64,000 nucleotides of DNA from Deltaproteobacteria bacterium (lineage in GTDB: Bacteria > Myxococcota_A > UBA9042 > DTJE01). Below the pieces are notes generated by a model, which saw nothing but the letters and a program-made list of their open reading frames with translations, searched no databases and was not told the DNA's origin. A program made the position numbers and the translations under genes. The stretch spans positions 1 to 64,000 of the forward strand of contig JAKPOP010000001.1 of assembly GCA_029547805.1 (NCBI GenBank), written 5' to 3'. Shown piece after piece: positions 1,959 through 22,600 of the stretch (positions are counted from its first letter, which is position 1; each line of letters opens with the position of its first letter).

Positions 1959-1995
1959 CCCGTGACGGGGATCGGCATCGGCCGCTTTCCCAATC

Positions 1996-2068
<73 letters not shown>

Positions 2069-2160
2069 CCCCGCGAGCGCCGACGGCATGTCGCCGTCGC
2101 CCGGTTTTGGTCTTTGACAAGTGAACCTGTTGATGCAATGACCTTGGTCACAACACCCAA

Positions 2161-5215
<3,055 letters not shown>

Positions 5216-6023: not shown

Positions 6024-7199
6024 ATGCCTCGGTGGCTGGGAGCAGTGGTGTTCTTCGGGATCGCAGCCACCATCTGGACCGCGGTCCATGTCTATCTCTA
6101 TCTCCGGGTCACGTCGGCCGTGGAGATCGGTGCCACGGGACGATCGGTCGCAAAAGGAGTCGTGGCGGGACTGGCACTGGCCTACCTGGTCGGACGACTG
6201 TTGTCAGGGCACTGGGAGGCAGGGGCGGGGGTGCTGACCTGGGTCGGGGCGATCTGGATGGGATTCGCGGCGGTGGCGGCGACGGTCTTCGCGGCCCGGG
6301 ACCTGGGCATCGCGCTGCCTGCGGGCCTGCTGGCGCGACGAGGGGTCCTGGACCCCGACTTGACCCATGAGGTGCTGCGATGGAGCGCCCGGACGGCCAT
6401 CGGGCTGGCGGCGGTGGTCTCGGCCTGGGGCCTCTGGGTGGTCTTCCGGGGACCCCTGGTGACGGAGGTGGAGGTCCCGATCCGGGGCCTTCCGGCCCGG
6501 ATGGACGGCTTCCGTCTGGTGCACCTGAGCGATATCCACCTGGGGGAGACCGTGGGAACCCGCTATCTGGAGCGGATCGCCTCGGTGGTGGACCCGCTGG
6601 AGGCGGACCTCGTGGTGGTCACCGGGGACCTGACCGACGAGCGAAACGGGGGCGACGGGTCCGGCCTCCGGAGGATCGCGGCGTTTCGCAGTCGACTCGG
6701 GGTCTGGGCCTGCACCGGCAACCATGAGGTCTATGCCGGTGGGCAGCAGGCCGTCGAGGCCATCGAGAGGGCAGGCATCCGGGTCCTTCGCCAGTCCCAC
6801 GAGGTCGTCGAGGAGGGGCTGGTGGTGGCAGGCATCGACGACCCGACCTTCCTGGGCGGGCGTGGGGCCCTCCCGGAGGCCATCGGGGCCGCCCTGGCCG
6901 GGGCTCCGACAGGGCTTCCGATCGTGTTGCTGGCCCACCAGCCTTTGGCATACCGGGAGGCGGCGGAGGCCGGGGTGGACCTGATGCTGTGCGGCCATAC
7001 TCACGGGGGACAGATGCCGCCGTTCCTGTGGCTCAACCGCCTGGTGTACCGGTATATGCAGGGTTGGCATCGGGTCGATGGGATGGCCCTGTCGGTCTCC
7101 CGGGGAACGGGATACTGGGGTCCCCCGATGCGCATCGGGGCCCCGGGCGAGGTCCTCCTCTACCGCCTGCGGTCAGCCGGGCCGCCGGAAGTCAGGTAG
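6024..7199 (+). CDS. Membrane-anchored metallophosphoesterase (YkuE/YaeI-like)
   Basis: A 391-aa protein. Its N-terminal ~145 residues contain about four hydrophobic segments (roughly 5-27, 45-60, 68-92, 120-142). A calcineurin-like phosphoesterase domain follows. The metal-binding motifs are all present: HLSDIHLGE (D170, H172), VVTGDLTDE, TGNHEVYAG, LLAHQP and CGHTHGGQMP. The YkuE/YaeI family includes enzymes acting on lipid-linked phosphates such as UDP-diacylglucosamine; the substrate here is unknown. The start is supported by GGGGAGGAAGGGG just before ATG. Its 3' end overlaps the convergent nucleotidyltransferase gene by 40 bp. Confidence 0.88.
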   Translation: MPRWLGAVVFFGIAATIWTAVHVYLYLRVTSAVEIGATGRSVAKGVVAGLALAYLVGRLLSGHWEAGAGVLTWVGAIWMGFAAVAATVFAARDLGIALPAGLLARRGVLDPDLTHEVLRWSARTAIGLAAVVSAWGLWVVFRGPLVTEVEVPIRGLPARMDGFRLVHLSDIHLGETVGTRYLERIASVVDPLEADLVVVTGDLTDERNGGDGSGLRRIAAFRSRLGVWACTGNHEVYAGGQQAVEAIERAGIRVLRQSHEVVEEGLVVAGIDDPTFLGGRGALPEAIGAALAGAPTGLPIVLLAHQPLAYREAAEAGVDLMLCGHTHGGQMPPFLWLNRLVYRYMQGWHRVDGMALSVSRGTGYWGPPMRIGAPGEVLLYRLRSAGPPEVR

Positions 7200-8335
7200 A
7201 ACTCCCAGAAGGCCTCCAGGGAGGCCCAAAGACGGTCCGCCAGGGTGGTGGAAGGAATCTCGTCCGGCGTCGGGTCGGGATGCCGCAGGCGATGGAAGGC
7301 CTTCCGGATTCCCTCCCGGAGGTCCGTCCGGAGGGGCCATGGCCACCACTGACGCGCCTGGAGGGCCAGGCGGTATCTGGGATCCAGGGCGCTGGCCGTG
7401 AGGTGCAGGAAGAGATGGCGTGTCCCGGGGGCCGCGGGCAGAAGGGATGCCCCCGATGGGAGGTCCCGCAGGTGGACCAGCAGTGCCTCGACGGTCCGCC
7501 CCCAGCGGGAGACCGCCGGGTCCGCGACCCAGGCCAGCCACCGCGATGATGGGGGGGCCTCCTGGATGGCCGCAAGGTCCAGGACCCACCTCCAGGGGGG
7601 GTAGCGATCGGGACGCAGACCGTGGTCCAGCAGGCCGTGGACCACCCCATGGGCCGCCAGGACCTCTGGTGCCGGAACCGGCACCTTCAGGCCTTGGACG
7701 GAGACCGTCGTGGTTCGCCCGGCCGGGAGCAGGTCCTCGAACCGGAGGGGACGGCCGGGGGCCTCGGGAGCCCGACAGCCCGGCAGATGGCGGTGGATTT
7801 CCACCGGGAGGCCCCCGGGGGGCGGACCCAGGGGATCGAGGTGGTGTCGGGAGAGGCTCGGGCCGATCCGCCGAAATCCCGCGGCGATCAAGCGGGACTG
7901 CAGGCGGTCGGCAGTGGCGGCCGGGACCAGGACGTCCACGTCGGCCAGGGGACGGCCGCAGACCGGAACCTGATCGGCAAGGTGCAGCGCGGCGCCTTTC
8001 AGGAAGACCACGGGGATCGCGTTCTGGAGGGCGATTCGGGCCACCTGGGCCGCAGTGGCCAGGGCCCGAAGGGCCGAGTCGGCCTGGGCCTCCCGGGCCT
8101 GTCGGGCCTTGGCCTCCCACTCCGGGTCCAGGCGATGCCGGAGGTCCGGGTGGGCCAGGCGTGCGGCGACCATGGGCAGAAGGCCGGTCGGTCGCAGGAT
8201 GGGTTCGGCCTGGGCCCAGGGGACCGGTGGCGGCACAGGCGGAACCTCCGGGGGCGCGAAGGCCGTCTGGAGGGCCCACAGGAACCCCGGCGGAGCGGCC
8301 GACTGGGGGGGATGGCGCGGAAAGGGCAGGTCCAT
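7160..8335 (-). CDS. Nucleotidyltransferase-fold protein (NTP_transf_5-like)
   Basis: A 391-aa protein resembling the uncharacterised nucleotidyltransferase family PF14907. The core shows FLKGAAL (residues 111-117) and the metal-binding pair in RPLADVDVLVP (D132, D134), then a PVEIHRHL segment. Relatives occur repeatedly in lasso-peptide and other PqqD-containing RiPP clusters, where the role is mostly undefined; adding a nucleotidyl or phosphosugar group is one possibility. The start is fixed by AGGAGAAGGGA directly before ATG, 20 bases after the S26-like gene. It is the last gene of the minus-strand run. Confidence 0.75.
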   Translation of the reverse strand: MDLPFPRHPPQSAAPPGFLWALQTAFAPPEVPPVPPPVPWAQAEPILRPTGLLPMVAARLAHPDLRHRLDPEWEAKARQAREAQADSALRALATAAQVARIALQNAIPVVFLKGAALHLADQVPVCGRPLADVDVLVPAATADRLQSRLIAAGFRRIGPSLSRHHLDPLGPPPGGLPVEIHRHLPGCRAPEAPGRPLRFEDLLPAGRTTTVSVQGLKVPVPAPEVLAAHGVVHGLLDHGLRPDRYPPWRWVLDLAAIQEAPPSSRWLAWVADPAVSRWGRTVEALLVHLRDLPSGASLLPAAPGTRHLFLHLTASALDPRYRLALQARQWWPWPLRTDLREGIRKAFHRLRHPDPTPDEIPSTTLADRLWASLEAFWEFYLTSGGPADRRR

Positions 8336-8355
8336 TCCCTTCTCCTGAAGTCCCC

Positions 8356-8880
8356 TCAGGATCCGAAGGGGGTCGCCAGCAGACGATACACCCTCCGGCG
8401 AATTCCCGGAGGGACCAGGAGACGAAGACCCCGCTTGAGGACCCGGAGGGACGGGGCCAGTTGCCGGGCCAGGGTCTGCCAGGCCCGGAACGCCTCGCTC
8501 GATACCGGGAGGGCCCGGGACCCGAGGCGCACCTCGCACACGATGCCCAGGACCTCCGAGACATCGGTCCAGGGGTCGGGGTGATCGGGAAGCAGGCCGG
8601 CGGTCTGGATCTCGGTTCCCGAGGGCGTCTTCCGTCGATCACGCAGGAGATGGCAGACCAGGTGGTCCTGGACCACCAGGGCCACGAGGCTCCCGGGACC
8701 CGGGACTTCCCCGGGGTCCAGGGGGCGCAGGGTCAACAGGACCCCGGGAGGCAGCAGGGGGATCATGCTGAGGCCTCCGGTCCGCAGGGAGATCCGGCGC
8801 CCCTTCCCCAGGTGCTCCCGAACCATCTCGGCCAGCAAGGGTGGGGGCGGTCCCGAGTCGCCAGGGGGACCGATTCTCAT
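8356..8880 (-). CDS. S24/S26-like peptidase (signal-peptidase fold)
   Basis: A 174-aa protein with the S26-type signature GGLSMIPLLPPG, where Ser38 would be the nucleophile, followed by a beta-rich stretch and VVQDHLVCHLLRD. That stretch corresponds to the region where the family usually keeps its general-base Lys; no clear Lys is visible there, so activity is uncertain. Small S24/S26 proteins of this type are common partners of HprK-like and nucleotidyltransferase genes in RiPP clusters, where they may remove the leader peptide. It overlaps the upstream radical SAM gene by ATGA, implying translational coupling. There is no obvious transmembrane anchor. Confidence 0.68.
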   Translation of the reverse strand: MRIGPPGDSGPPPPLLAEMVREHLGKGRRISLRTGGLSMIPLLPPGVLLTLRPLDPGEVPGPGSLVALVVQDHLVCHLLRDRRKTPSGTEIQTAGLLPDHPDPWTDVSEVLGIVCEVRLGSRALPVSSEAFRAWQTLARQLAPSLRVLKRGLRLLVPPGIRRRVYRLLATPFGS

Positions 8881-9953
8881 GGCGGGACCTCCCCGTTCCT
8901 GGACAGGAGGTCCCCCAGGATGTGGGCCTTCCGACAGGCCTGGGGATAGGGTCGGACCGGATCCCCGGTGTCGGCCTCGGCCAGGCCGGGGCAGAAGTCG
9001 CAGGCGGGCCGGAGGCTGCAGTCCCGGCAGCCGGTGCGGTGTCGCTGGCGGATTTGCCGGACCTCCCGGAGCGCGGGACCCCGAAGGACCGCTCCGAGCC
9101 CCTCCCGGAGATGTCCAAGGGGCCTCGTCCAGGCCACACAGGGGGAGATGCGGCCCGTGGGATCCACGTAGAGGCGGGTGACGCCCGCGGCGCAGAGGGG
9201 GGCGTCGGGGTCGGGCTCCCGGGGCGGGATCATCGTCTGGTCGCCCAGCAGGCGTTGCAGCACCGGTCGCTGGCGGTCTTCGGGAAGGGCTGCGGCGCCG
9301 CTCCCCCGGGGCGAGGGAGGTCCGTCGCGTCCCCGGGACCGGACCGGCAGCACGGTCAGGCTCTCGGCCAGGGAGACTCCCCGCTGATCGCACCACTCTC
9401 GGAGGGCTCCCCCGTCGTCCTCGAGGCCCTGGACGAGGCTCCGGGTGACTCGCACGGGGATGCCCCGGCGGGCCAGGTCCTCGATGGCACGGACGGCGGC
9501 CTGGTGGGACCCGGGACGGCCGGTGAAGGCGTCATGTCGCGTCGGGTCGCGGTGATGAAGGCTCACGTCCACCGACAGGAACGGGACCCGGGCCAGAGAC
9601 TCCGCTGCCTCCCGGTAGTGCCATCCCGTGGTCTTCACCAGCACGGTGAAGCGGAGCGATGCGCAGGCCTCCAGCACCTGGAAGAAACCGGGGTGGACCA
9701 GGGGTTCCCCGCCAGAGATCACCACCCGGACCACCTGTCGCCTGCGGGCCTCCCGGAGGAACTCGATCCAGGCCGCTGCCGGGAGTTCCGCCGCCCGGTG
9801 ATCGGGCACCGGGCCCAGATAGCAGTGGGCACAGGCCAGGGGACAGCGCCAGGTGAGGTCCAGGTGGACCAGGAACAGGCGGCGCCGGGCTTGATAGATC
9901 GCCTCCATCTGCCGGAGGGAACGTCGGTACTCCCGGGCTTCTTCCGCCGTCAT
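8877..9953 (-). CDS. Radical SAM/SPASM peptide-modifying enzyme
   Basis: A 358-aa protein. The [4Fe-4S]-SAM motif is CPLACAHC (CxxxCxxC), followed by VVISGGEPLVHPGF (GGEP, SAM binding). The C-terminus carries a SPASM-type motif for auxiliary clusters: C-x12-G-x4-C in the CAAGVTRLYVDPTGRISPC segment, then CxxC-x5-CxxC in CRDCSLRPACDFC. SPASM enzymes typically modify ribosomal peptides through thioether, C-C or C-O crosslinks, or epimerisation. The gene starts in an ATGA overlap with the HprK-like gene and ends in an ATGA overlap with the peptidase. It is the best candidate for installing the modification on the 57-aa peptide encoded about 900 bp upstream. Confidence 0.85.
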   Translation of the reverse strand: MTAEEAREYRRSLRQMEAIYQARRRLFLVHLDLTWRCPLACAHCYLGPVPDHRAAELPAAAWIEFLREARRRQVVRVVISGGEPLVHPGFFQVLEACASLRFTVLVKTTGWHYREAAESLARVPFLSVDVSLHHRDPTRHDAFTGRPGSHQAAVRAIEDLARRGIPVRVTRSLVQGLEDDGGALREWCDQRGVSLAESLTVLPVRSRGRDGPPSPRGSGAAALPEDRQRPVLQRLLGDQTMIPPREPDPDAPLCAAGVTRLYVDPTGRISPCVAWTRPLGHLREGLGAVLRGPALREVRQIRQRHRTGCRDCSLRPACDFCPGLAEADTGDPVRPYPQACRKAHILGDLLSRNGEVPP

Positions 9954-10843
9954 CGCCGCTCCGAACCGTCCGCTTCCTCCGATTCCTGGTCCACCAGGGG
10001 CCAGGGCGACTGGTCCCGGGGGAGACGGATCACGCGGACCGGCAGGGCCCGGACCAGGTCCAGGGCCCGGTCCAGCAACAGGCCTCGGACCGAGGCCAGA
10101 TGCACGTCCACCCGAGCCCGGGCCAGCACCTCCCGGAGGGCCCGGGCCGTCTGGAGCCTCTGGCCGCAGTGTCCCCGAGGCCCCTGGCCCTTCCGGAGTC
10201 GGAAGAGGCCCGCTACTGGCATCGGGGGAGCCGTGATGGCCACCGGTTCCCGCCCCGGCAGCGGCGACGGCACGGCCCACCATCGATCGGTCCCGGCATC
10301 GTGCCACAAGAAGGCCGCGTCGTCTCCCAGGCAGCCCTCGTCGCCGTGGTGCCGTGCCAGGGTGGTCTTGCCGCCGCCGCTCTGGGCCAGGAACACCCAG
10401 GCCCGGTGGCGATGGATCAGGGTGGCGCCGTGCAGCACGATCCCTCCCTGGCAGAGGAACCACTCGGGCAGGAATCCCCGAAGGCATTGCCGGAGGGCCG
10501 CCTGGGCCGTGTCGGGACTCCCGGCGTGGAGCCATGCCCGGGCCTCCGACAGGCCCTCTCCCTCCAGGACCCAGAGGGATCGCTCTCCCCGCCGCCAGTG
10601 CCCCTGGCAAAGGGCCCCTTCACGGACCCGGGTCCGGCGCCGCCTCAGGGGTTCCCGGAAGGTCTCCAGGAAGACCCGGGTCTCGAGGGGGGCCGGCGTT
10701 CCCCAGGGGGCCGGGATGGGGGACGGCACCATCCCTTCCGGGAGGAACCGGGTCAGGGTCTCCCGCAACAGTGGAGAGGACGTCCGGATGCGGAGGCGCA
10801 GGGGGCCCAGCCGGAGGTCCGCATCATCAGGGGCCGAAACCAC
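9950..10843 (-). CDS. HprK-related kinase of a RiPP cluster
   Basis: A P-loop protein of 297 aa from the preferred GTG start. It has the HPr-kinase C-terminal arrangement: a VLHGATLI segment (around residue 136-143), then FLAQSGGGKTTLARH with the Walker A loop at about 154-161. The open frame continues upstream to 10915, but that part is antiparallel in frame to, and lies within, the peptide gene at 10827-11000. I therefore place the start at GTG 10843, giving a 17-bp overlap with that gene. HprK-like proteins in lasso clusters (paeninodin type) phosphorylate the precursor's C-terminal residue; here the target is unknown. The start is the least certain point. Confidence 0.75.
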   Translation of the reverse strand: MVSAPDDADLRLGPLRLRIRTSSPLLRETLTRFLPEGMVPSPIPAPWGTPAPLETRVFLETFREPLRRRRTRVREGALCQGHWRRGERSLWVLEGEGLSEARAWLHAGSPDTAQAALRQCLRGFLPEWFLCQGGIVLHGATLIHRHRAWVFLAQSGGGKTTLARHHGDEGCLGDDAAFLWHDAGTDRWWAVPSPLPGREPVAITAPPMPVAGLFRLRKGQGPRGHCGQRLQTARALREVLARARVDVHLASVRGLLLDRALDLVRALPVRVIRLPRDQSPWPLVDQESEEADGSERR

Positions 10844-11000
10844 ATCCGTTCTCTTCGTCCACGCCTCCGCCGCAGGGATTGGAGGGGCCCAGGGCATTGC
10901 GTTCCGACGCGGCACCGCTCTGCACCTGCGGCCGGTTCCAGGTCTTCCGCGTCTTCGCCTTCGGGGACTCGGACCGGGCCTTTTTGGGAGTGGTCTTCAT
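10827..11000 (-). CDS. Putative RiPP precursor peptide, 57 aa
   Basis: A small open frame preceded by CGGAGGGAAGAGAGGC, a strong ribosome-binding site, 16 bases after the lipoprotein stop. The N-terminal 20 residues are Lys/Arg-rich. The segment KTWNRPQVQSG has W21, P24, V26 and G29, which resembles the YxxPxLxxxG leader motif bound by PqqD-like RRE domains in lasso clusters. The C-terminus is Gly-rich with two cysteines: PSNPCGGG (C43), then DEEN, then GCGFGP (C53). Length, composition, Shine-Dalgarno and position directly before HprK, radical SAM and peptidase genes all fit a RiPP precursor. The core boundary is not visible; A37-G38 is a guess. No homologue is known to me. Confidence 0.78.
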   Translation of the reverse strand: MKTTPKKARSESPKAKTRKTWNRPQVQSGAASERNALGPSNPCGGGVDEENGCGFGP

Positions 11001-11016
11001 GCCTCTCTTCCCTCCG

Positions 11017-14000
11017 TCAGTAGAGGATCAATGCGTACCCGGCACCGTCGGTGCCCACGAGCAGGTCCGGGAGGCCATCCCCGTTGAAGTCCCCGGGCGA
11101 GGCCGCTCCGAAGTAGCCGAAGCGAGTCCCCGAGGGGTCCAGGGGGTCCACCAGCACCGGGGACTCCCAGGGGAAGGTGCCGATGCCGAAGGTTCCTCCG
11201 GGGTCCGAGTGGTTCAATCGGACGAAGACCTTGCCCCGGGTGGATCCGGTCGTGTAGATGATGTAGGCGAGATCCACCGAGGGGCCATCGGGGTCATCGT
11301 CCAGGTTGCCGATGGGAACCAGTTTGTCGTAGGAACCAATCACCTCGAGGCCCCGCTCGTTCTGGTAGATGCCGGTCCCGACGCCCGTGCTCGCATCGAC
11401 CTTCACCTTCTGGCCATAGCGGCCCGCCAGGTAGCCTCCCCGGAAGACCACCAGGGTCTTCGGCGGCGTCTGGGTGCTGGCCGCCGGCTGGGAGATCATC
11501 AGGTCCGGCAGCCCGTCTCCGTCCAGGTCCGTCTTGCCCACGATGGTGGTCCCGAAGTTGCCGGAGGTGGTCTCCTGGTCCGGGACCAGGCGGATCACGT
11601 TGCCATCGTCGGCACCGCCGGATCCGTAGGCCACCTCGAAGGTGGTCGGGGTCGCGATGGAACGGCCCCGGAAGACCAGCACCTGGGATGGGGCCGTGGC
11701 GGTGCCGATGGCGATGTCGTCATGGCCGTTCTGCTGGAGGTCCCCGGCGGCGGCGACCCGGACGCCGAAGAAGGTGCCGGCCGGGGCACCGGTCATCTGG
11801 AAGATCGAGACCCGGTGGGTGGTCAGGTCCGCCGCCGACGAGAGGTTGATGGAGACAGCGGTCGACGGGCCCCAGGCAGGGTTGCCCGGAATCAGGTAGG
11901 CGCGGTTCTGGCCGTAGGACCCCACCAGCAGGTCTTCGGTGCCGTCGCCGTCGAAGTCGAAGCCCCCGGCCACAGCCACGGCAGTGGGACCACCGGAGGC
12001 ATGTTGCATGCCCGTGAAGGTCAGGTTCGGGGTGGTGGCCAGGCGTCCACCGGCCACGCCCAGGAAGACCTTGAGCACCGGAGCGGTGGTGCTGGCCTCC
12101 CCGACCGCCAGGTCCCCGATGCCGTCGCCGTTCAGGTCGCCGGCGGAGGCGGCGGGCATGCCGAAGTTGGTCCCTCCCGTCAGGCACTGGTGGTGGGGAC
12201 CCGACGCGCTGGAGATGGCCAGGTCCGGGATCGTGCGGTCGGTCCCCTCCCCGAAGCCGTAGACGACGCAGATCGTGTTCAGCATCGTACCTCCGCCGCC
12301 GCCCAGCACCAGGTCTCCGAGGCCGTCGCCATCCAGGTCCCCGACCGTGGCGATTCGCCGTTGCATCAGGAGGTCTGTGTAGGGGGCCGTCGTGCCATAG
12401 AGGCGGGCGTAGCGCAGGGACAGGTCGATGCTTCCCAGGATGGCCAGCGGCGAGGCGTTGCCCACTTCATCCTCTACTCGGAGGGCGAAGGTGTACTGGG
12501 TGCTGTTGGGGTTCGTGCCCGTGGCAAAGCGGCAGGGCGTCCCATTCTCGGCATAGGCCGGGGACCGGGGGTCCGGGCCGGTGACCTGGAAGACCACCGG
12601 GGTTCCGGGGGCTCCGGGGCTGGGCAGGGGTGACGTGAAGGCCAGACCCTCGACCTTGCAGGCGGCCTCGAAGTCCGCCACCGAGAGGATGGGCAGCGGG
12701 GAGTAGCGCAGGTCGAAGCGGGTCGCCGGCCCCCCATCGACCCCGTCATCTCCCGTGTCGGTCCACTGGAGGGTGACGGCCGGTCTTCGGCGGTTCACCG
12801 ACTGGGCCGACAGCGTGGGGGCCGAGGGGGCCACGAGGTCCACGTGGACCGTGAAGGTGCTGGAGGCCTCGTTTCCAGCGGCGTCCCGGGCCGTGACCAG
12901 GATGGTTCCCTGGGAGTCGTGGGTCAGGGTGACCTGCATGCCCACGTCCACCGAGGGCGCCTCCAGGGCGACCGGGAGAGTCGGGGAGTCGGGGACCAGG
13001 GGCGAGGCATTCAAGGTCAGGCCCGTGAGGGCACCTCCCGACAGGTGGTCATCCTCCAGGTGCACTCCCAGGGAGGCCTGGAGACCCGGGGCCGGGCCGA
13101 GGTCCGCGGCGATGCCCCAGAAGACCTCGCTGCCGGCTCCGGGAGTCGTGAAGCGCACCTGGGGGTCCCGGAGGTCCACGATTCGGCTCACCGCCCCCGA
13201 GGAGCCCACCACCCCGCCGCCTTCCAGGGCCCGGGCCTCGAACTGGACCGCCGTCCCGTCCTGGACCGTCGTGGAGAACGTCACCTGCTGCCCGGTCAGG
13301 GGGAGGTCCTGGTTGGACTGTCCCGTCTGGATCAACCGGACCGTGTCCACGGACCCGCAGGCCGGGGAAACGGTCACCTGGAGGCTCATCGAGGCTGTCG
13401 CGCAGTCGGTCCCCGGTGTCGGGCAGAGGGCGTTCGAGAGGTAGCCGCTGCTGCCGAGGCCCCCGATCACGACCTGGCACGACGTCAGGTTCACCGTGAA
13501 CGAGGAGGAGACGGTCTGCCGGTTGCCGACCCCGTCGACGACCGTGAGCAGCATCCGGTAGTAGGGCGTGGACCCCGCCGGCAGGGTCGGGAAGATCGAC
13601 GCCTCCAGTCCGCCAGGATGCTGGATCATCCCCTGGGACAGGGGCTCCGGGGGGTCGCAGAGGGTGAATGTCCCGTCGCAATTCCGGGCCAGTTCCAGAA
13701 GGTAGGAGACCGCGTCGAGGCTCGGGGAGCCATAGGAGACCTCGATCTGGAATCCTGGCAAGGCCGGCTTCGCGTCATCGCCATCTCCGAAGACCGCCCC
13801 GTCGGCCGGCAAGGCCAGCAAGGCATCGGGAAGCACGGTGTCCACCTGGACGGACCGGCTGGTGACCGCGGGGTTGCCGGCCTCGTCGGACACCGTCGCC
13901 TCGATCTGGTGATCCCCGTCGGTCAGCACCGGGTAGGTTGCGAAGGGGAAGGCCGCCGTTCCGTTGGACTGCACCGGGGCCGAGGCCACCGGGAGGCCCA

Positions 14001-17000
14001 GGTCCTTCAGGGTCACGGTGCGGCCGATGGCGTCGGAGACCACCACGATGTCCCGGGAGTCGCCGGCCCGGACCGTGCCCGAGAGGGGGGACTGGAAGGC
14101 CACGGTCGGCGGGATGGTGTCCACGGTGGGGCGGAAGACCGGCGTGGACGGCGGCAGGGGGCTCAGATTGCCCACCAGATCCTGGACCCGGGCATAGACC
14201 TCGTTGCCTCCCTCCCGCAGCGTCGCCAGGGTCACCAGGGTCCCGGGGAAGGTCGGATCGGTGGACTGGGCCAGGCCGTTGACCCACAGCGTGAGGCTGC
14301 CGGCCTCGCTGGCCGCCACCTGAATCTGGTAGGTCCGTCCTGGGGCGGCCTGTTCGGCGGCATTCAAGGTTCCGATGGGGGCCTCGGTGTCCGACGGCGA
14401 GGTGATCGCGGTCACCGTGGGGGCCACCGTGTCCAGGTAGACATGGCGGATGCGCTCCCCGGCGTTGGGCCCGTCCAGGGAGGAGACCCAGGGCTGTCCG
14501 TCGGCCAGTTTCCCCTCGGCCACCAGCGAGAAGGTCCCGTCGGGCATCCCGGTGGCATTCAGGGTGGTGTTGCCGGACCCACCGCTGTTCCCGATGGCGA
14601 CCTGTCGGTAGCCGGTCGTGGTACAGGGAGTGCCCGTCAGGCCCGTTCCCTTCGCGCACAGGCGCAGGTTCTGCGTCCCGGAGGGGAGGTCCGCCACCGT
14701 GACGACGACGGCCTTGGAGGCCGCCGCGGACCAGGGAATCGCGCACTGCCCCCCAGCACAGACGCCTGTGGCGCCGCAGGAGGCCGAGGTGGTACAGGAG
14801 GTGGCGTCCACGAAGCCCGGAAGCGTGATCCGGACCACCGGCCTCGACCCGAAGACCTGGATCGTCCTGGACAGGGAGGCCGGGTTGCCGGCCAGGTCCG
14901 ATGCGGCGGCCTGCAGCAGCAGGAGCCCGTCCGGGAGGGTAACCTGCGGGAAGGAGACCTGGCCCAGGTACCCGTCAGGCACCGCTGCCTCGACAGCCGC
15001 GGTGACCTGCTCCCAAGGACCGGCGAGGGGACCGTAGTCCAGCGTGACGACCCGGCCCGCTTCGAGGCCGCTGACCTGGACCACGACGGTGTACTGGAGT
15101 CCCGGCGTCGAGGGGTCCTCGTCCTGGAGGTACGTGAGGCTCTGGAGGTTCGGGTCCGGGGCCTCGAAGGCCGGAAGGCGTGGGGCGCTGCGGTCCACGA
15201 AGGCCGAGATGGGTCCCTCGGAGACCTCCTGGCCGGTGACGTCCGTCGCGGTCACGGTCAGGGAGCAGGGGGTCAGGTTGTAGAGCACCACCTCCGGGAA
15301 GGAGAGGTGTTCCCCGGACACGGTGGCCAGATAGGTGGCCTTGCGAATCGTCCCGCAGGTGACCTCGAGGGACCCCTGGGAACCGTCCTCGAAGTTCGGG
15401 GCGTCCACCTCCACCGTCAGCACGCAGTTGGCCTCGCCCGGGGCGCACTCGGGGCTCGCCAGGTTGAACCACTGCTGATTTCTGGGGAGGGCGAAGGCGA
15501 GCAGGGGGGTTGCGGTCTTCAGGTACAGCACCCGGGGGGCCGAGTGGCCCTCGGCGGCGTCCCAGGTCGCCCGGGCCCGGAAGGTCTGGGGCGTCTCGGC
15601 CAGGTCCGGGACCTGGAACAGGGCGATGCCCTGGGCATCGGTCGGGAGCGCTCCCAGGTCCATGCCATCCCGGGAGAGGGTGGTCAGGACCCCTTCCAGG
15701 GGGGCATCGTCGGGATCCGCGACCCGGACCCGGACGTCGAAGGGAGCCCCGGCCAGGGGGCCATTCCGGGGGGGGGTCACGATGGCCACCCGGGGCCCGG
15801 GCCATGCCAGCGTGAGGGTCCGGGAGACCGGGCCGCCGGTGTTGCCAGCCGGGTCCGTGGCCGTCGCCGAGAGGACATTGGCCCCCGGAAGCAGCGTGAC
15901 ACCCGGGAATCGGACCTGCGTCTCGCCGGCGCCCATCGACTGACAGGCGGTATCCTGGTTCACGCTCAGGCAGACCTTCGTACCGCCTCCCCCGCCTGAG
16001 GCGACAGTGACCTCGACGTCGGCCTGGTAGCCGGGTTCTTCCGGTTGGACATCGGCATCCTCGGGACGCGCCGCCGGGTCCAGGTCATCCCGGGCCGGAG
16101 ACGTGATGGCCACCACGGGGGGGGTCTGATCCAGCAGGAACGGGACGATCGTGAGGCTGCCGGGGTGGTCCGAGGCCCGGTTGCCGAACTCGTCCTGGGC
16201 GTCCACCTGGACCTGCCAGTTTCCGTCGGTCAGCGGGATGCCGCCGACGGTCAGGGGGATCGTGAAGGAGAGCGACCCGGAGGCGATGGCCCGAGGGGGG
16301 GTGTAGGCGAGGGCCTCGGACCCGTCCTCTCCCCGGACCGAGACGGTCGGGATGGCGCCGTTGAGCCCCGTTGCGGTGAGGGCGACCGGCAGAGAGGGCG
16401 TCCGGACCACGTCCCCGGACCGGGGGCGAACCAGCGTCAGGATCGGAGCCGGGAGGCCCACCCGGAAGGCGATCTCCTCCGAGGCAGAGGGGTTGGTCGC
16501 GTCGTCGAGCACCCGGCAGCGAACCTTCTGGGTCAGGGCCTGGACCGGCAGCGCCACGGCGACCTCGTAGAAGCCGTCCTCCGACGGGGTCTCCACGGCC
16601 AGCCGACCGACCTCGACCTCAGGGGTCCCGAAGCGGTCCTCCCGGCAGCGGATGAAGAGGTTCCTGCCCGTCTCGACCCCGGTTCCCTGGACCCGGAAGC
16701 CGGTCTCGTAGGTCAGCGGGGTGCCCGGGTCCCGATCGTCCTTCGCCAGCAGCGCCTCTCCCGAGGTGGGCCAGGCCAGCACGAGGGAGGCCTGGGTCAC
16801 CCGGGCGGTGAACTGCTTCTCGGCCCGCCCCTCCCGGCCGCAGGCATCCCGTCCCGTCGCCACCAGCAGGTAGCCGCCGTCGGCGGGACAGGACAGGTTC
16901 GTCAGCCGCCAGATTCCCAGGCCGTCGGGGGTCGCCTCCCCTGCGGGTTCCCCGTTCAGGGCCACCTGGACCGCGCCCCCCTCCGGGAGGCCCGTCGCGG

Positions 17001-18012
17001 TGCCGGCCGCATCCCACTGGAGGCCGTTTCCAGGGTCGAGGTCGAGGTCATCGGCCAGGGTCAGGAGGTCCTTGTCCGGCTCGGTCAGGGTGATCACCGG
17101 GTCCACCAGGTCCGCCACGAAGGGCACGGCATCCAGCCGACCGACCCGGTCCGGTGCGGCGGCATCGAGGACCTCGGCGGTGACCTGGAACGGGAGGCCG
17201 TCGGGGATCGTCCCGTCTTGGGCCAGGGTCAGCACGAAGACGGCGATTCCCTGGTCGTCCAGGGGGGTCGGACCGGCGGACAGCGTCTGGTCTCCGACCG
17301 CGACCTCGACCCGGGCGTCGGTGCAGGTGAGGTCCGGATTCCGGACCTGGAAGCGGACCTGGGTCCCCGGCAGGTCAGGGTCGGCGTCCGTGAGCCAGCA
17401 GGACTCGTTGGTCGGCGTCAAGACGATGCCACAGCCACCGATGTCCACCTGCACGGTCTTCACCGCCTCGGCCGTCTGCTCCGCGGCGTTGGCCGTCGTC
17501 ACCCGGACCTCGTACCCCGCAGGATTGTGGGTCAGGGTCACCGGCTCGAAGCGGACGGTCCCGGTGCCGTCGTCTCCGGGCGTGACGTTGCCGGAGGCGA
17601 TCCGGTTCCCGGCGACCCACAGGTGGACCGGCCGTCCCGTCTCGATCCCGTGGGTCGTGGCCACCACGGCGATCTGGAACCCCGGCATCGCCAGGTAGTC
17701 GGGAAGTTCATCCTCCGTCGTCAGTTGCACGACATCGACGCCCTCCCCCTTCGGGCCCTGGGCGGTCCAGATCACGAAGGAGACCTCGGGGGCGGGCGGC
17801 GTCACCTCTCCGTCCGGAAGGTCCGCTCCGTCGGGGAGGTCCGTCCCGTCCGGGAGGTCCGCCCCATCGGGCGTCCCGTCGGGGGCAAGGTCGTTCCCCG
17901 GGAGGTCCCAGACGTCGGCGGACGGGGATCCGCCCCCGCCGCAGGAGGCCAGGAGGCCCACCATGGCCATCGCGGGCAACAGGTTCCCAGGACGCGACCA
18001 GGATTGCTTCAT
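11017..18012 (-). CDS. Giant FG-GAP/Ig-like repeat lipoprotein
   Basis: A 2331-aa secreted lipoprotein. The signal peptide ends in LLAS-C (Cys24 lipidated), followed by an Asp/Gly-rich linker of repeated DLPDG units. Residues ~60-1865 form many tandem beta-sandwich (Ig/HYR-like) repeats of about 95-110 aa with recurring D-x-(A/T)-P-x-V and D-x-A-G-N motifs. Residues ~1870-2331 contain six or more FG-GAP/VCBS-type calcium-binding repeats such as VGDLDGDGLGDLVLG and PGDFNGDGLPDLLVG, probably one beta-propeller. ATG overlaps the PqqD stop (ATGA) and is preceded by GGACGGAGGAAGCC. Adhesion or scaffold roles are typical of the fold. Its link to the surrounding RiPP genes is unexplained. Confidence 0.85.
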   Translation of the reverse strand: MKQSWSRPGNLLPAMAMVGLLASCGGGGSPSADVWDLPGNDLAPDGTPDGADLPDGTDLPDGADLPDGEVTPPAPEVSFVIWTAQGPKGEGVDVVQLTTEDELPDYLAMPGFQIAVVATTHGIETGRPVHLWVAGNRIASGNVTPGDDGTGTVRFEPVTLTHNPAGYEVRVTTANAAEQTAEAVKTVQVDIGGCGIVLTPTNESCWLTDADPDLPGTQVRFQVRNPDLTCTDARVEVAVGDQTLSAGPTPLDDQGIAVFVLTLAQDGTIPDGLPFQVTAEVLDAAAPDRVGRLDAVPFVADLVDPVITLTEPDKDLLTLADDLDLDPGNGLQWDAAGTATGLPEGGAVQVALNGEPAGEATPDGLGIWRLTNLSCPADGGYLLVATGRDACGREGRAEKQFTARVTQASLVLAWPTSGEALLAKDDRDPGTPLTYETGFRVQGTGVETGRNLFIRCREDRFGTPEVEVGRLAVETPSEDGFYEVAVALPVQALTQKVRCRVLDDATNPSASEEIAFRVGLPAPILTLVRPRSGDVVRTPSLPVALTATGLNGAIPTVSVRGEDGSEALAYTPPRAIASGSLSFTIPLTVGGIPLTDGNWQVQVDAQDEFGNRASDHPGSLTIVPFLLDQTPPVVAITSPARDDLDPAARPEDADVQPEEPGYQADVEVTVASGGGGGTKVCLSVNQDTACQSMGAGETQVRFPGVTLLPGANVLSATATDPAGNTGGPVSRTLTLAWPGPRVAIVTPPRNGPLAGAPFDVRVRVADPDDAPLEGVLTTLSRDGMDLGALPTDAQGIALFQVPDLAETPQTFRARATWDAAEGHSAPRVLYLKTATPLLAFALPRNQQWFNLASPECAPGEANCVLTVEVDAPNFEDGSQGSLEVTCGTIRKATYLATVSGEHLSFPEVVLYNLTPCSLTVTATDVTGQEVSEGPISAFVDRSAPRLPAFEAPDPNLQSLTYLQDEDPSTPGLQYTVVVQVSGLEAGRVVTLDYGPLAGPWEQVTAAVEAAVPDGYLGQVSFPQVTLPDGLLLLQAAASDLAGNPASLSRTIQVFGSRPVVRITLPGFVDATSCTTSASCGATGVCAGGQCAIPWSAAASKAVVVTVADLPSGTQNLRLCAKGTGLTGTPCTTTGYRQVAIGNSGGSGNTTLNATGMPDGTFSLVAEGKLADGQPWVSSLDGPNAGERIRHVYLDTVAPTVTAITSPSDTEAPIGTLNAAEQAAPGRTYQIQVAASEAGSLTLWVNGLAQSTDPTFPGTLVTLATLREGGNEVYARVQDLVGNLSPLPPSTPVFRPTVDTIPPTVAFQSPLSGTVRAGDSRDIVVVSDAIGRTVTLKDLGLPVASAPVQSNGTAAFPFATYPVLTDGDHQIEATVSDEAGNPAVTSRSVQVDTVLPDALLALPADGAVFGDGDDAKPALPGFQIEVSYGSPSLDAVSYLLELARNCDGTFTLCDPPEPLSQGMIQHPGGLEASIFPTLPAGSTPYYRMLLTVVDGVGNRQTVSSSFTVNLTSCQVVIGGLGSSGYLSNALCPTPGTDCATASMSLQVTVSPACGSVDTVRLIQTGQSNQDLPLTGQQVTFSTTVQDGTAVQFEARALEGGGVVGSSGAVSRIVDLRDPQVRFTTPGAGSEVFWGIAADLGPAPGLQASLGVHLEDDHLSGGALTGLTLNASPLVPDSPTLPVALEAPSVDVGMQVTLTHDSQGTILVTARDAAGNEASSTFTVHVDLVAPSAPTLSAQSVNRRRPAVTLQWTDTGDDGVDGGPATRFDLRYSPLPILSVADFEAACKVEGLAFTSPLPSPGAPGTPVVFQVTGPDPRSPAYAENGTPCRFATGTNPNSTQYTFALRVEDEVGNASPLAILGSIDLSLRYARLYGTTAPYTDLLMQRRIATVGDLDGDGLGDLVLGGGGGTMLNTICVVYGFGEGTDRTIPDLAISSASGPHHQCLTGGTNFGMPAASAGDLNGDGIGDLAVGEASTTAPVLKVFLGVAGGRLATTPNLTFTGMQHASGGPTAVAVAGGFDFDGDGTEDLLVGSYGQNRAYLIPGNPAWGPSTAVSINLSSAADLTTHRVSIFQMTGAPAGTFFGVRVAAAGDLQQNGHDDIAIGTATAPSQVLVFRGRSIATPTTFEVAYGSGGADDGNVIRLVPDQETTSGNFGTTIVGKTDLDGDGLPDLMISQPAASTQTPPKTLVVFRGGYLAGRYGQKVKVDASTGVGTGIYQNERGLEVIGSYDKLVPIGNLDDDPDGPSVDLAYIIYTTGSTRGKVFVRLNHSDPGGTFGIGTFPWESPVLVDPLDPSGTRFGYFGAASPGDFNGDGLPDLLVGTDGAGYALILY

Positions 18013-18338
18013 GGCTTCCTCCGTCCGGGTCGGCGGGTCTTCCCGGAGGCCGGCTCCTTCCAGGGCTCCCCGACCGTCTCCAGCACGCCTCGTTCTTGCA
18101 ACGTCTCCAGAAACTCCTGGAGGTCGTGCTCCACTTCCGCCAGGGAAGAGGCCTCGAATCGCCGCATCACGGATCGGGAGAGGGAGCGGAGGGCCCGCGG
18201 GCGGCTCAACAGGGACAGGACGAAGGCCCCCGAGGGGTCGGTCACGGAGTGGAACCGGCCGTCTGCCGTCAGCAGATAGTGCTCCCCCTGCCACTGTCGG
18301 TGGACGACATCCTCCCGAATGCGATAGGCGCGCTCCAT
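18009..18338 (-). CDS. PqqD-like RiPP recognition protein (RRE)
   Basis: A 109-aa protein with the PqqD/RRE pattern: an N-terminal beta-hairpin region (YRIREDVVHRQWQGEHYLL), a VTDPSGAFVLSLL segment, then a helical part ending in LETLQERGVLE. RRE domains bind leader peptides and deliver them to modifying enzymes. It sits between a radical SAM gene 10 bases upstream and the large lipoprotein (ATGA overlap). I chose ATG at 18338; a TTG at 18374 overlapping the radical SAM gene would add 12 residues. Neither has a good Shine-Dalgarno, which suggests coupled translation. Confidence 0.78.
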   Translation of the reverse strand: MERAYRIREDVVHRQWQGEHYLLTADGRFHSVTDPSGAFVLSLLSRPRALRSLSRSVMRRFEASSLAEVEHDLQEFLETLQERGVLETVGEPWKEPASGKTRRPGRRKP

Positions 18339-18348
18339 CGCCCATAGA

Positions 18349-19356
18349 CTATCGGATGCCCGGGGGATCGTCAAAAGGGACGGCGGCCAGTTCCTGGTCT
18401 CCGAAGGCCTCGAAATACTCCCGCCAGACCCCTTCGCAATCCCCCTTCCAGGAACAGGGGGAGCAGGCGGGAGGGTGGACCTTTCCCTCGACGGTCCGGT
18501 CCCGGGACCAGTCCCGAGGGGCCTGGTCCAGCTGGTGCACCTCGCTCCGGACGTGGGCCCGGTAGTGCCACTCGCTGGCCTGCCGGGCCCGGGACCCCAG
18601 CAGGCACAGGGGGATGGCCTCGGTGACCGCCTCGCATCCCCGGCGTTCCAGCAGGTCCAGCACCTCCAGGACCCGGGGCACCGCGTCGCGGTACCGGGGG
18701 ACCACCGCCTCGAACTCCCGTCGGGCGTTTCCGAGGGCGTGGGGGAAGGTCCAGTTGAACCGTCGCACCCCCAGGTCCGCGAAATCCCTGGCGATGTCCG
18801 ACAGGTCGTCCAGGTTCCGCCGGGAGATCACGGTCTTCAGGGTCACTCGTTCCCCGGCCTCCAGGAGTCCCCGGACGGCCTCCCGGGTCTGCAGGAAGGA
18901 CCCGGGGGCCCGGGTCACCGCGTCGTGGACCTCCGCAGAGGCTCCGTGGACCGCCACGACGAACCGGACCTCCAGGCCCGCCAGCCGATCCCGGACCGCA
19001 GGGATCGACAACAGCCGCCCGTTGGTCTGGAGCCCCACCCGGAGACCCAGGGCCCGGGCGGCCCGGACCAGTTCCGGAAGGTCCTTCCGCAGCGTCGGTT
19101 CCCCGCCGGTGAACGTGACCACCCGAATGCCGCGCCGGGCGGCGTCCTGGATCTCCCGGGCCATCTCCGCGGTGCCCCGCCAGTCCCGGCCCTTGCGGCG
19201 AATCGCCTCGTCGCGCTGGTCCGCGATCACGCAGTGGATGCAGCAGTTGTTGCAGGCGTAGGACATCTTGATGTCCAGATGGGTCACGGCGCCCGGTTCC
19301 GGCGCCGGGCCGTTTCCGTGGCCGTCGTGATCGGGGGGCGGCCGATCGGGGGTCAC
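18349..19356 (-). CDS. Radical SAM enzyme, PqqD-partnered
   Basis: A 335-aa protein. The CxxxCxxC motif lies in YACNNCCIHC and the SAM-binding motif in TFTGGEPTLRKDL. The C-terminus has a short auxiliary-cluster type motif (ACSPCSWKGDCEGVWREY: C-x2-C-x5-C). The start is GTG at 19356, overlapping the galT stop and preceded by GGGAGGTCC. Downstream lies the PqqD-like gene, the common arrangement for a peptide-modifying radical SAM enzyme and its recognition protein. It is distinct from the SPASM enzyme at 8877-9953, so the locus would have two radical SAM enzymes. The product of its chemistry cannot be read from sequence. Confidence 0.83.
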   Translation of the reverse strand: MTPDRPPPDHDGHGNGPAPEPGAVTHLDIKMSYACNNCCIHCVIADQRDEAIRRKGRDWRGTAEMAREIQDAARRGIRVVTFTGGEPTLRKDLPELVRAARALGLRVGLQTNGRLLSIPAVRDRLAGLEVRFVVAVHGASAEVHDAVTRAPGSFLQTREAVRGLLEAGERVTLKTVISRRNLDDLSDIARDFADLGVRRFNWTFPHALGNARREFEAVVPRYRDAVPRVLEVLDLLERRGCEAVTEAIPLCLLGSRARQASEWHYRAHVRSEVHQLDQAPRDWSRDRTVEGKVHPPACSPCSWKGDCEGVWREYFEAFGDQELAAVPFDDPPGIR

Positions 19357-20375
19357 GGCCGGACCTCCCGGAGGAAGCGGGCGGCGTCCTCGGGGGGCGT
19401 TGGGTTGATGTAGAAGCCGCTGCCCCACTCGAAGCCGGCGGTCTTGGTCAGGCGGGGCAGGATCTCGATGTGCCAGTGCCAGTCCATCTCGATGGTGGAC
19501 CAGTACCCCGCCCGGCGCTGCTGCAGGTAGTAGGCCGGCGCCGTGTGCAGGATGAAGTTGTACGGCGGGTCGTCGAGGGCCGCCTTCATGCGGCGGATCA
19601 CGTCCCGGAGATGGCGGGCCAGGGCCATCGCGAGCCCGTCGTCCATCGTGGCGTAGTCCGCCTGATGCCGCACCGGCGCGATGGTCATCTCGAAGGGGAA
19701 GCGGGAGGCATAGGGGCACCAGGTCACGAAGTCCGAGTCCTTCGCGACGATCCGGGACTGGGTGTCCAGTTCCTGGGCAATGATGTCGCAGAAGATGCAC
19801 CGCTCCTTCACCGCGAAGTGTTCCCGGGCGCTGGCCAGCTCCATCGAGACGGTCCGGGGGGTCACCGGGGTCGCGATCAACTGGGAGTGGGGATGCTCCA
19901 GGGAGGCGCCCGCCGCGGCGCCCCGATTCCGAAAGATCAGGATGTAGCGGAACCGGACGTCCCGCTGGAGGTCCAGGATGCGCTCGCGGTACATGCGGAG
20001 CACGGCGGCCACCTGCTCCACCGGGAGGTCCGACAGGTCCAGATCGTGCTCCGGGGTCTCGATGATGACCTCGTGGGCCCCGATGCCGTTCATGCGGTCG
20101 TACTGCCCTACGGCGGCCCGTTCCAGGTCCCCCTCGATGCGGAGGGCCGGGAACTTGTTGGAGACCACCCGGACCAGCCAGCGGCCCGGGCGGGAGGGGT
20201 CCATGAAGGCCCGGATCTGGGGTGGCGTCGCCTCCTCGTGCCCCTGGCAGAAGGGGCAGGCCTCCCGTCCCGTCCAGTTCCCCTTCTCCAGGTGGAAGTC
20301 CTGAGGGCGACTGGCCCGCTCGGTGGCGATGATGACCCAGCGCTTCTGCACGGGGTCGTGGCGAAGTTCGGACAT
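19353..20375 (-). CDS. galT: Galactose-1-phosphate uridylyltransferase-like protein
   Basis: A 340-aa HIT-superfamily protein of the GalT type. Visible features are the zinc-site CPFCQGHE near the N-terminus, NKFPAL, the active-site LEHPHSQLIATP (HxHxQ), and HWHIEILPRLTKTAGFE near the C-terminus. The canonical reaction exchanges UDP between UDP-glucose and galactose-1-phosphate; divergent members act as ADP- or UDP-sugar phosphorylases, so specificity is open. The start is set by GGGAGGTTGC before ATG. It lies 31 bases after the GH57 gene and overlaps the radical SAM gene at its end, so carbohydrate and peptide-modification genes appear co-transcribed. Confidence 0.85.
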   Translation of the reverse strand: MSELRHDPVQKRWVIIATERASRPQDFHLEKGNWTGREACPFCQGHEEATPPQIRAFMDPSRPGRWLVRVVSNKFPALRIEGDLERAAVGQYDRMNGIGAHEVIIETPEHDLDLSDLPVEQVAAVLRMYRERILDLQRDVRFRYILIFRNRGAAAGASLEHPHSQLIATPVTPRTVSMELASAREHFAVKERCIFCDIIAQELDTQSRIVAKDSDFVTWCPYASRFPFEMTIAPVRHQADYATMDDGLAMALARHLRDVIRRMKAALDDPPYNFILHTAPAYYLQQRRAGYWSTIEMDWHWHIEILPRLTKTAGFEWGSGFYINPTPPEDAARFLREVRP

Positions 20376-20382
20376 GCAACCT

Positions 20383-20399
20383 CCCGAAACGGTTTCGGG
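20383..20399 (-). promoter_or_regulatory. 17-bp palindrome before galT
   Basis: CCCGAAAC-G-GTTTCGGG is a perfect inverted repeat in the 31-base gap between the GH57 stop and the galT start, directly against the galT ribosome-binding site. The GAAACSGTTTC-like core resembles LacI/GalR-family operators, which fits a sugar gene. It could equally act as an RNA hairpin covering the Shine-Dalgarno. No LacI-family gene is in the window. Confidence 0.45.
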
Positions 20400-20406
20400 G
20401 CCCCTG

Positions 20407-22530
20407 TCATGCACTCCAGCTCGAGAGGGCCAGGCCCACCGGATCCACCTGGATCACCACGGATCCCTCCCAGGGGAAACGCTCTTCAGGCAGCGATCCC
20501 TGGCCCATCTCCACGAAGAATTCCACCGTCAGGGGGCCCGGCCGCGAGTCCTGGAAGAAGGACAGCGGGAGGGCCGCCTCCATCGTCTCCTCCACGGCGA
20601 TCCGGATCCCCTCCGGGGTCTCCCTCCCCGGACTCTGGAATGTCCCCTGGCATCCGTCCTGCTGCCGGGTCACCTCGAGGGTGGCCTCGACGGGCCGGCG
20701 GAAGCGCACGCGGGCCCATTGTCCCGGTTCCAGCAGGCCGCTGCCATGGAATCCCTCGACCCGCAGGTAGAAATTCCGGTGGTCATAGCCGAAGCGGACC
20801 ATCGAGATCCGGGGATCCAGTCGGTGGATCGAGCCGTGCTGGAAGGAGGCGGTTCCCGCCCCGACCCACTTGAAAAACCCCCCCTTGCGGCCGTTGATCT
20901 CCGGGTGGATCAGGGCCGTCGGGGGCTGGATCGGCATCACCACGCGTTCGGGTCCCACCGGGCGATCGAGTGCCTCCGGCGGCGGGAGTCCCATTTCCTG
21001 GTAGAGGGCCCGGAGGTTCTCCCGGAACAGGAAATCGAACTCCGGTTCGTGGATCGAGGAGTGCCCCTCGCCGAACCACCAGAACCAGTCGGAGGCCTCG
21101 GCCCGCATCAGCAGCCGTCGCACGCGGTGCTCCTTCTCTGCCGGCAGCGGTCCGACCTGCCGGACGACCTCCAGCGCCTCCGCCAGATAGCACCAGGCCC
21201 GGTTCTTGACCGGGTCCCCGATCCAGGTGTTGAGGGTTCCGTCGATCCAGGACCCGGTGGCCAGTTGCTCCAGGGGCCTGCCGGGCCCGTGGCGCTCCAG
21301 GTACTCGGAGAAGGTGACCGGCTCGGCGAACCCGCTGTCGCAGATCGCCCGATAGAGCGCCGTGAGGAACGGATATCCGCCGCAGGGGTAGTGCTCCCAG
21401 GCATTCTCGCCGTCCAGGGCGATCACGACCACCGCCCGGGGGTCCTTCCAGGCCTCGGCCCGCTGGCGCAGTTCCTGGAGGAAGTGCCGGATGGCCTGCT
21501 CTTGGGGCCAGCGGCTGTAGACGAAGCCGATCTGGTCCGACAGGAAGTGGTCCCGGAAGAAGATGCTGGTCCCGGACCAGACATGGGGTCGCAGGCGGTC
21601 CGAGGCCGTCCAGGTCCCTCCCAGGGATCGGCGCAGGATCTCTTCGTCCGTGCAGATCCAGGACAGTCCCCTGGAGGCGATCAGGTCCACCGCCTGCTGG
21701 GAGACGGCCCCCTCGGCCGGCCAGAGGCCTCGGGGGCGCTGCCCGAAGACCTCCGTGAAGTACCGGAGGCCCTCGTCCAGTTGCCGGGCGGCCTCCTCGG
21801 GGGCCTGGAACCGGGCCGAGGGGAGTTCGGTCTCGGGTCGGGCCTCCAGGGCTGCCTGGGTGGAGAAGAGCAGGGGGAGAATCGGATGATGGAAGGGGGT
21901 GGTGGAAAGTTCCACCCGTCCCATGTCCCGGAGTTCCTTCCAGGCGGGCACGATGCGCCGGATCTGCTCCTGGCCCACCGCCACCAGCGTCTCCAGGTCC
22001 TCCTGGCGAAAGCCCCGTTGCCTGGCGGCGATGGCGGCGACCCGCGGGTCCTCCTGGAGCGTCGGGCCGCACCAGGAGAGCAGGAAGAGGACCTCCAGGT
22101 CCACCATCTCCTGGGCTCCGAACCGGTGCAGCACGGGGCCCAGGGTCGGAGACCCGTTCCGCAGCTCGTGGAGTTCCCGGTAGCGGGGAAGGCGCTGGAA
22201 CCAGACCTCCTGGTTCACGGCGAAGCAGGTCCGGATCAGGAACTGGCGGTCCGCGTCGCTCAGGACGTCCGGGTCCCGAAGCATCAGGCGCAGGGTCCGA
22301 TCCGGGAGCGGGTCCTCGGAGAGGTAGCGCTGCAGGGCCTCGAGGAGCGACGGAGTGAAGTTCGTCACGGTCCGCATCTCCGGGACCTGGCGCTGGATCT
22401 CGCCCATCTCCAGGTAATCCTTCACGCCGTGGAGCCAGGTCCAGGGGAGCATCTGCAACCCCGAACGGGGGTCCTCGTAGGAGGGCTGGTGCATGTGCCA
22501 GAGAAAGACGACCTGGAGGCGCCGCTTCAT
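20407..22530 (-). CDS. Glycoside hydrolase family 57 protein
   Basis: A 707-aa protein that begins almost at once with the GH57 signature FLWHMHQPSYED. It also contains GLWPAEGAVSQQAVDLIASRGLSWICTDE (given as a landmark; the WPAEGAVS part carries the conserved Glu), ALDGENAWEHYPCGG and a C-terminal beta-rich region. GH57 enzymes act on alpha-glucans (amylase, amylopullulanase, 4-alpha-glucanotransferase) in the cytoplasm; there is no signal peptide. ATG at 22530 gives the expected N-terminus, though an in-frame ATG at 22548 is possible. It is the first gene of the minus-strand run and diverges from cysE. Confidence 0.85.
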   Translation of the reverse strand: MKRRLQVVFLWHMHQPSYEDPRSGLQMLPWTWLHGVKDYLEMGEIQRQVPEMRTVTNFTPSLLEALQRYLSEDPLPDRTLRLMLRDPDVLSDADRQFLIRTCFAVNQEVWFQRLPRYRELHELRNGSPTLGPVLHRFGAQEMVDLEVLFLLSWCGPTLQEDPRVAAIAARQRGFRQEDLETLVAVGQEQIRRIVPAWKELRDMGRVELSTTPFHHPILPLLFSTQAALEARPETELPSARFQAPEEAARQLDEGLRYFTEVFGQRPRGLWPAEGAVSQQAVDLIASRGLSWICTDEEILRRSLGGTWTASDRLRPHVWSGTSIFFRDHFLSDQIGFVYSRWPQEQAIRHFLQELRQRAEAWKDPRAVVVIALDGENAWEHYPCGGYPFLTALYRAICDSGFAEPVTFSEYLERHGPGRPLEQLATGSWIDGTLNTWIGDPVKNRAWCYLAEALEVVRQVGPLPAEKEHRVRRLLMRAEASDWFWWFGEGHSSIHEPEFDFLFRENLRALYQEMGLPPPEALDRPVGPERVVMPIQPPTALIHPEINGRKGGFFKWVGAGTASFQHGSIHRLDPRISMVRFGYDHRNFYLRVEGFHGSGLLEPGQWARVRFRRPVEATLEVTRQQDGCQGTFQSPGRETPEGIRIAVEETMEAALPLSFFQDSRPGPLTVEFFVEMGQGSLPEERFPWEGSVVIQVDPVGLALSSWSA

Positions 22531-22600
22531 GGATGGGAAGCATAGCATCTTCCACCAGGGATGCGACCTTTCCGGGTGGAGATGCCGCGACCAGTTGGGC

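Follow-up and report, generated by a model that had tools for sequence, protein, structure and literature searches.

A radical SAM peptide-maturation cassette inherited together with the gene of a giant surface lipoprotein

Which kind of peptide is produced by the gene cluster at positions 7160-19356 (minus strand) of the window analysed here, and what might this peptide be needed for? The window is the whole stretch of 64,000 nucleotides, which belongs to a deltaproteobacterial genome of 4.08 Mb in 32 contigs with ~70% GC. An earlier note on this DNA had proposed a new system for a ribosomally synthesized and post-translationally modified peptide (RiPP), combining lasso-type accessory genes with two radical S-adenosylmethionine (SAM) enzymes in place of the lasso protease and cyclase. 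All the small genes it named do exist, most of them with overlapping starts and stops. Its inventory lacked one gene of the same operon, encoding a lipoprotein and 7 kb long; the apparent 12-kb cluster consists of two small gene blocks flanking this single giant gene, whose overlooked product is the most unusual member of the set. On a slight balance of probability, we regard the locus as a radical SAM RiPP system that is coupled with a giant lipoprotein of the cell surface. A literature search returned no prior description of this gene set.

Gene order and conservation of the cassette

According to codon-position GC content and domain searches, the minus-strand operon runs in the order GH57, GalT, radical SAM gene P0007, PqqD-like gene, 2331-amino-acid lipoprotein, 57-amino-acid peptide, HprK-like kinase, radical SAM/SPASM gene P0004, S24/S26-like peptidase and NTP_transf_5 nucleotidyltransferase. 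Starts overlap stops by a few bases between most neighbouring genes. For example, the stop of the PqqD-like gene (18009..18338, minus) overlaps the start of the giant gene (11017..18012, minus), and the GTG start of the kinase gene at 10843 (9950..10843, minus) overlaps the 3' end of the peptide gene (10827..11000, minus).

We searched the P0004 enzyme and the giant in 53 related genomes. The giant was found as a full-length, single-copy orthologue (E <= 1e-100) in 42 of them; in G006 its gene is divided between two contigs, in G027 a stop interrupts it, and in some other genomes contig ends truncate it. Between families its identity is ~32-37%, with alignment from end to end and a nearly constant length. 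Wherever contigs allow, the order PqqD-like RiPP recognition element (RRE), giant, peptide, HprK-like kinase, radical SAM/SPASM enzyme, S24/S26-like peptidase is constant. This order recurs in ~40 genomes of ~10 families, far more often than chance would allow, and the co-occurrence of core genes on which the earlier note had made its proposal depend is borne out. All six core genes were seen in 27 loci, and missing members nearly always fall beyond contig ends or beyond the stretch retrieved. A profile search detected the PqqD-like gene at its upstream position in 33 loci, a count that includes the two loci without a giant described below (G004 and G010); in G015 and G027, whose contigs do extend upstream of the giant, no such gene was found next to it. 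The tree of the radical SAM enzyme groups by family, with some lineages from outside the class nested among the class families.

The precursor peptide

The 57-amino-acid peptide carries the leader motif WNRPQVQS and two cysteines (Cys 43 and Cys 53), and its gene is preceded by a good ribosome-binding site. Compared with a genus neighbour (G001), its tail differs by 10 synonymous and 1 non-synonymous codon changes and its head by 3 synonymous and 6 non-synonymous ones. The tail is therefore under purifying selection, and this pattern together with the ribosome-binding site identifies the peptide gene as a real one. In each of the 39 readable loci, i.e. those whose contig reaches far enough, one short gene follows the giant. 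In all 39 products, the leader has the form [YWF]xxPx[VIL]x[ST] or one close to it, and a Cys-containing tail comes after it; cysteine makes up 7.8% of the tails versus 0.2% of the heads. Thus, a leader-core precursor lies next to modifying enzymes in 39/39 readable loci, as expected for a RiPP, and homologous loci do not consistently lack the peptide, an outcome that would have spoken against the original proposal. Shortly before a tail cysteine, 36 of the 39 peptides have a Ser/Thr-containing stretch, a plausible candidate for the cleavage zone.

The giant lipoprotein

The giant protein consists of a lipobox (LASC), a chain of Ig-like domains (Big_13, 9.6e-21) and a C-terminal propeller (FG-GAP, 2.9e-23; encoded by 11020..12417, minus). 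The lipobox is kept in most orthologues. An AlphaFold2 model covering the last 1190 amino acids reached a predicted local distance difference test score (pLDDT) of 87. Foldseek, applied to the C-terminal half, returned chiefly generic Ig-chain matches; VIA-align then singled out the propeller, which (model residues 725-1190) aligned to integrin alphaX with a Z score of 24.9 and a root-mean-square deviation of 3.3 Å over 345 residues. The predicted fold does not by itself prove a function, but it puts a domain of the ligand-binding type at the tip of a stalk held by a lipid anchor.

The core enzymes

Profile searches, which the earlier note had suggested, matched the PqqD-like protein (PF05402, E 9e-8) and both the radical SAM (PF04055, 1e-18) and SPASM (PF13186, 3.5e-7) domains of P0004 (8877..9953, minus), all above cut-off. 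In 36 aligned P0004 sequences, the CX3CX2C motif and six further cysteines are invariant, which is the cysteine pattern of a radical SAM/SPASM peptide maturase.

For the two remaining enzymes the proposed identities had to be established in other ways, since neither protein of the window has a Pfam match of its own. Orthologues of the S24/S26-like peptidase (8356..8880, minus) match Peptidase_S24 (PF00717, 6.7e-7), and Ser38 and His77 are invariant in 34 sequences, corresponding to the S24/S26 dyad. Ser-His dyads of this type are found in archaeal-type signal peptidases. The HprK-like protein has almost no profile signal apart from a weak match to HprK_rel_B (0.011). Its structure model (pLDDT 86) matches PEPCK, a known structural relative of HprK, with Z 12.8 over 244 residues; HprK entries were not among the listed structure matches. 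H160, G180, K181 and T183 are invariant in 38 sequences, the latter three forming the GK-T of Walker A. The model thus predicts a PEPCK/HprK fold with a P-loop, a common fold that leaves the substrate unsettled.

The RiPP-type maturation set is complete and conserved, its precursor is real, and it is locked to the gene of a giant surface lipoprotein.

Related cassettes outside the class

With the radical SAM profile we detected looser cassettes in other lineages of the phylum, and we inspected 20 regions, one of which (G016) is from the same class as the window. The C-terminal part of the giant itself had no match at 1e-25 in the sampled genomes of other classes. Two main gene orders were observed, that of the class and the order HprK, PqqD, radical SAM, lipoprotein, peptide. 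Of the 16 peptide-bearing loci from outside the class, which are not all independent, several coming from one family, 12 encode a large FG-GAP/Ig protein immediately upstream of the peptide. The complete proteins among them measure ~1300-2400 amino acids (a contig end truncates one), and nearly all of the 12 have lipoprotein signals. The pairing of giant and peptide thus outlasts gene reordering elsewhere in the phylum.

A Ser or Thr is the last residue of 15 of the 16 outside peptides (P 5e-12), in line with the known specificity of lasso-peptide kinases for a C-terminal Ser (PMC8498205). Universal phosphorylation of a C-terminal Ser had to be rejected: in the class, Ser/Thr ends occur in only 12 of 40 peptides.

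Proposed function

We propose that the PqqD-like RRE would hold the peptide's leader, as known RREs do, and that the radical SAM/SPASM enzyme would act on the tail with its cysteines, a thioether crosslink being the most likely modification. The HprK-fold protein may phosphorylate a Ser/Thr residue, in the outside relatives probably the C-terminal one. The S24/S26-like peptidase would release the leader by cutting close to the stretch of small residues that precedes the cysteine, and the mature peptide, as its constant gene pairing suggests, could work with the giant as a ligand or small subunit. Class-wide co-inheritance of peptide, enzymes and giant suggests a core role at the cell surface rather than that of an occasional antibiotic. 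More tentatively, and with less confidence than in the coupling as such, we consider it possible that the tailored peptide is permanently associated with the integrin-like giant, as its ligand or small subunit, and that the pair is a core surface structure of the class and, more loosely, of the phylum.

Several points weigh against this proposal. We infer the contact between peptide and giant from gene linkage only, and the operon holds no exporter gene. The core sequence differs strongly between genera. The kinase step is doubtful for the window's own peptide, which has no Ser/Thr after its first cysteine, and the low share of Ser/Thr ends in the class adds to this doubt. Among the outside loci, three (L086, L087 and L093) have a peptide without an adjacent giant, and in a fourth (L091:4379-7007) an EGF-like lipoprotein of 811 amino acids takes the place of the FG-GAP giant before the peptide; the partner protein may therefore vary.

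Some of these points could be accommodated by a different explanation, that the peptide is the released product, a signal or bacteriocin-like molecule, of an ordinary radical SAM RiPP cluster, with the giant being merely a co-transcribed surface gene or a receptor. The enzymes do make up a standard RiPP set, cores that vary between genera are reminiscent of bioactive peptides, and the outside loci lacking an adjacent giant would be expected. We nevertheless consider this explanation rather unlikely. The operon has no transporter or immunity gene; clusters for such products are patchy, whereas this one is present in one copy per genome throughout the class, with radical SAM trees following the families; and the giant stays paired with the peptide through gene reordering.

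The tight linkage of the giant, equal to that of the peptide, could also mean that the substrate of the radical SAM enzyme is not the peptide but the giant or another protein, modified before export, with the peptide as an adaptor or regulator. The same four enzymes are found in G004 and G010 beside a C25 peptidase gene where no peptide was found. We regard this as improbable, however: every readable peptide locus encodes an RRE-type leader with a separate Cys tail, and maturases of the radical SAM/SPASM type that have PqqD-like partners usually take short precursors as substrates.

Comparison with known systems

The third explanation, a true lasso-peptide locus with B2 protease and cyclase encoded elsewhere, can be given very little credence: although the YxxP leader motif, PqqD-like RRE, HprK-like kinase and NTP_transf_5 protein are known lasso companions (PMC7533575, PMC8498205), the NCBIfam lasso PqqD models score far under cut-off, the conserved modifying enzyme is a radical SAM/SPASM protein, the B2 transglutaminase-like protease family (PF13471) is absent from the window's genome and from 42 of the 53 genomes searched, and of the Asn-synthetase-like cyclase matches listed (PF00733), none is closer to the cassette than ~178 kb (G034), the others being on different contigs. 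The sole PF13471 match near a cassette (G019) is a 546-amino-acid Transglut_core protein. Because the lasso protease family is missing from the genome and none of the listed cyclase matches is nearby, we assign the locus to the radical SAM RiPP systems and reject lasso membership. The earlier note was right to describe a RiPP-type set that combines a short Cys peptide with an RRE, a radical SAM/SPASM enzyme, a peptidase and a kinase-like protein and that lacks the two defining lasso enzymes; nor did the searches show a protease/cyclase pair just outside the block. Of its label "lasso-type", only the shared leader motif and accessory families are left.

With the lasso systems that include a kinase and a nucleotidyltransferase (paeninodin, pseudomycoidin), the locus shares the Y/WxxP type of leader, the PqqD-like RRE, the HprK-like kinase and NTP_transf_5; the Ser ends of outside relatives resemble lasso kinase substrates (PMC8498205). 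It differs in having a radical SAM/SPASM enzyme and an S24/S26-like peptidase instead of B2 protease and cyclase. A review of RiPP leader proteases makes no mention of S24, S26 or signal peptidase (PMC10885120).

The best NCBIfam match of P0004 is ScmE of the SynChlorMet cassette (ScmC/ScmE/ScmF), and a kinase orthologue weakly matches ScmC; all these models remain far under cut-off (ScmE 86/400 bits, ScmF 71/400 on P0007, ScmC 17/125 on the orthologue). Unlike SynChlorMet, the cassette has one core radical SAM enzyme and not a pair, and its core includes the giant and the S24/S26-like peptidase. The HPr-rel-A system (TIGR04352/TIGR04353) likewise combines an HprK-like kinase with a PqqD-like protein, again with scores far under cut-off (HprK_rel_A 10.5/200 bits, PqqD_rel_X 16.5/35); here, in contrast, a radical SAM enzyme and the giant lipoprotein belong to the core. 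Sactipeptides and ranthipeptides resemble our system in their radical SAM/SPASM enzyme and Cys-containing core, the linkage being putative in our case, whereas the kinase, S24/S26-like peptidase and giant lipoprotein are foreign to them.

The closest working analogy is QhpC/QhpD of quinohemoprotein amine dehydrogenase (QHNDH). The polypeptide that is crosslinked there by a radical SAM enzyme is small, bears a leader and ends as a subunit of the enzyme (PMC7876137). This offers a precedent for a radical-SAM-crosslinked small subunit, the QHNDH gamma subunit being, as here, a small leader-bearing polypeptide containing Cys and Asp/Glu (PMC7876137). Dehydrogenase subunits, a subtilisin-like protease, an ABC exporter and a Trp quinone residue are features of QHNDH that the present system does not share; it has an FG-GAP lipoprotein and an S24/S26-like peptidase, and no exporter. 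RiPPs are mostly patchy and dispensable products, whereas the complete maturation set described here is passed on throughout the class as one unit with an integrin-like lipoprotein of 2300 residues. If the pairing of peptide and giant is permanent, this would be a RiPP with a structural job at the cell surface. If the peptide acts with the giant, radical peptide chemistry would be tied to cell-surface architecture, providing a concrete system for asking why bacteria would tailor a peptide to serve a surface protein.

Accessory genes and genomic surroundings

The other genes of the operon are lineage-specific extras outside the conserved core. P0007 (18349..19356, minus) is an HxsC-like radical SAM gene (PF04055, 1e-21) scoring 133 bits against the HxsC4 cut-off of 500; the Pfam search matched no SPASM domain in it. 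It lies inside the cassette only in the window's genus (G000, the window's genome, and G001) and is absent from this position in g5. Of the two radical SAM enzymes originally assigned to the system, only P0004 is therefore a core member, and joint action of both was rejected. The NTP_transf_5 nucleotidyltransferase (7160..8359, minus; PF14907, 1.3e-24), whose start may be TTG 8359 or ATG 8335, had also been counted as a member; it adjoins the cassette in five loci, all of family f1, and nucleotidylation as a core step was rejected on these grounds.

GalT and GH57 genes likewise adjoin the cassette in family f1 only. In the window, these GH57-type and GalT-type genes (18349-22548) are fused to the operon at its start, an arrangement that in f1 accompanies the cassette whether it is of the giant or of the C25 variant. 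The latter variant occurs in G004 and G010, two genomes of one family (L044:2747-10722 and L045:3902-12112), which have HprK, PqqD, radical SAM and S26 genes without a giant, and in which a peptide gene was not detected. There the cassette adjoins a Peptidase_C25 protein of ~1040-1096 amino acids with a MYXO-CTERM-like C-terminal tail. Both loci additionally hold NTP_transf_5, a P0007-type radical SAM gene, GalT and GH57.

Just downstream of the operon, window positions 1-5000 contain an rRNA-operon-like spacer with tRNA-Ile and tRNA-Ala and a GC content below that of the rest. Two adjacent plus-strand radical SAM genes at 33926-38420 (PF04055, 1e-17 and 1e-12) are unrelated to the cassette, and a minus-strand gene at 39111-41390 encodes a 759-amino-acid protein with an IgGFc_binding domain (PF17517, 3e-62).

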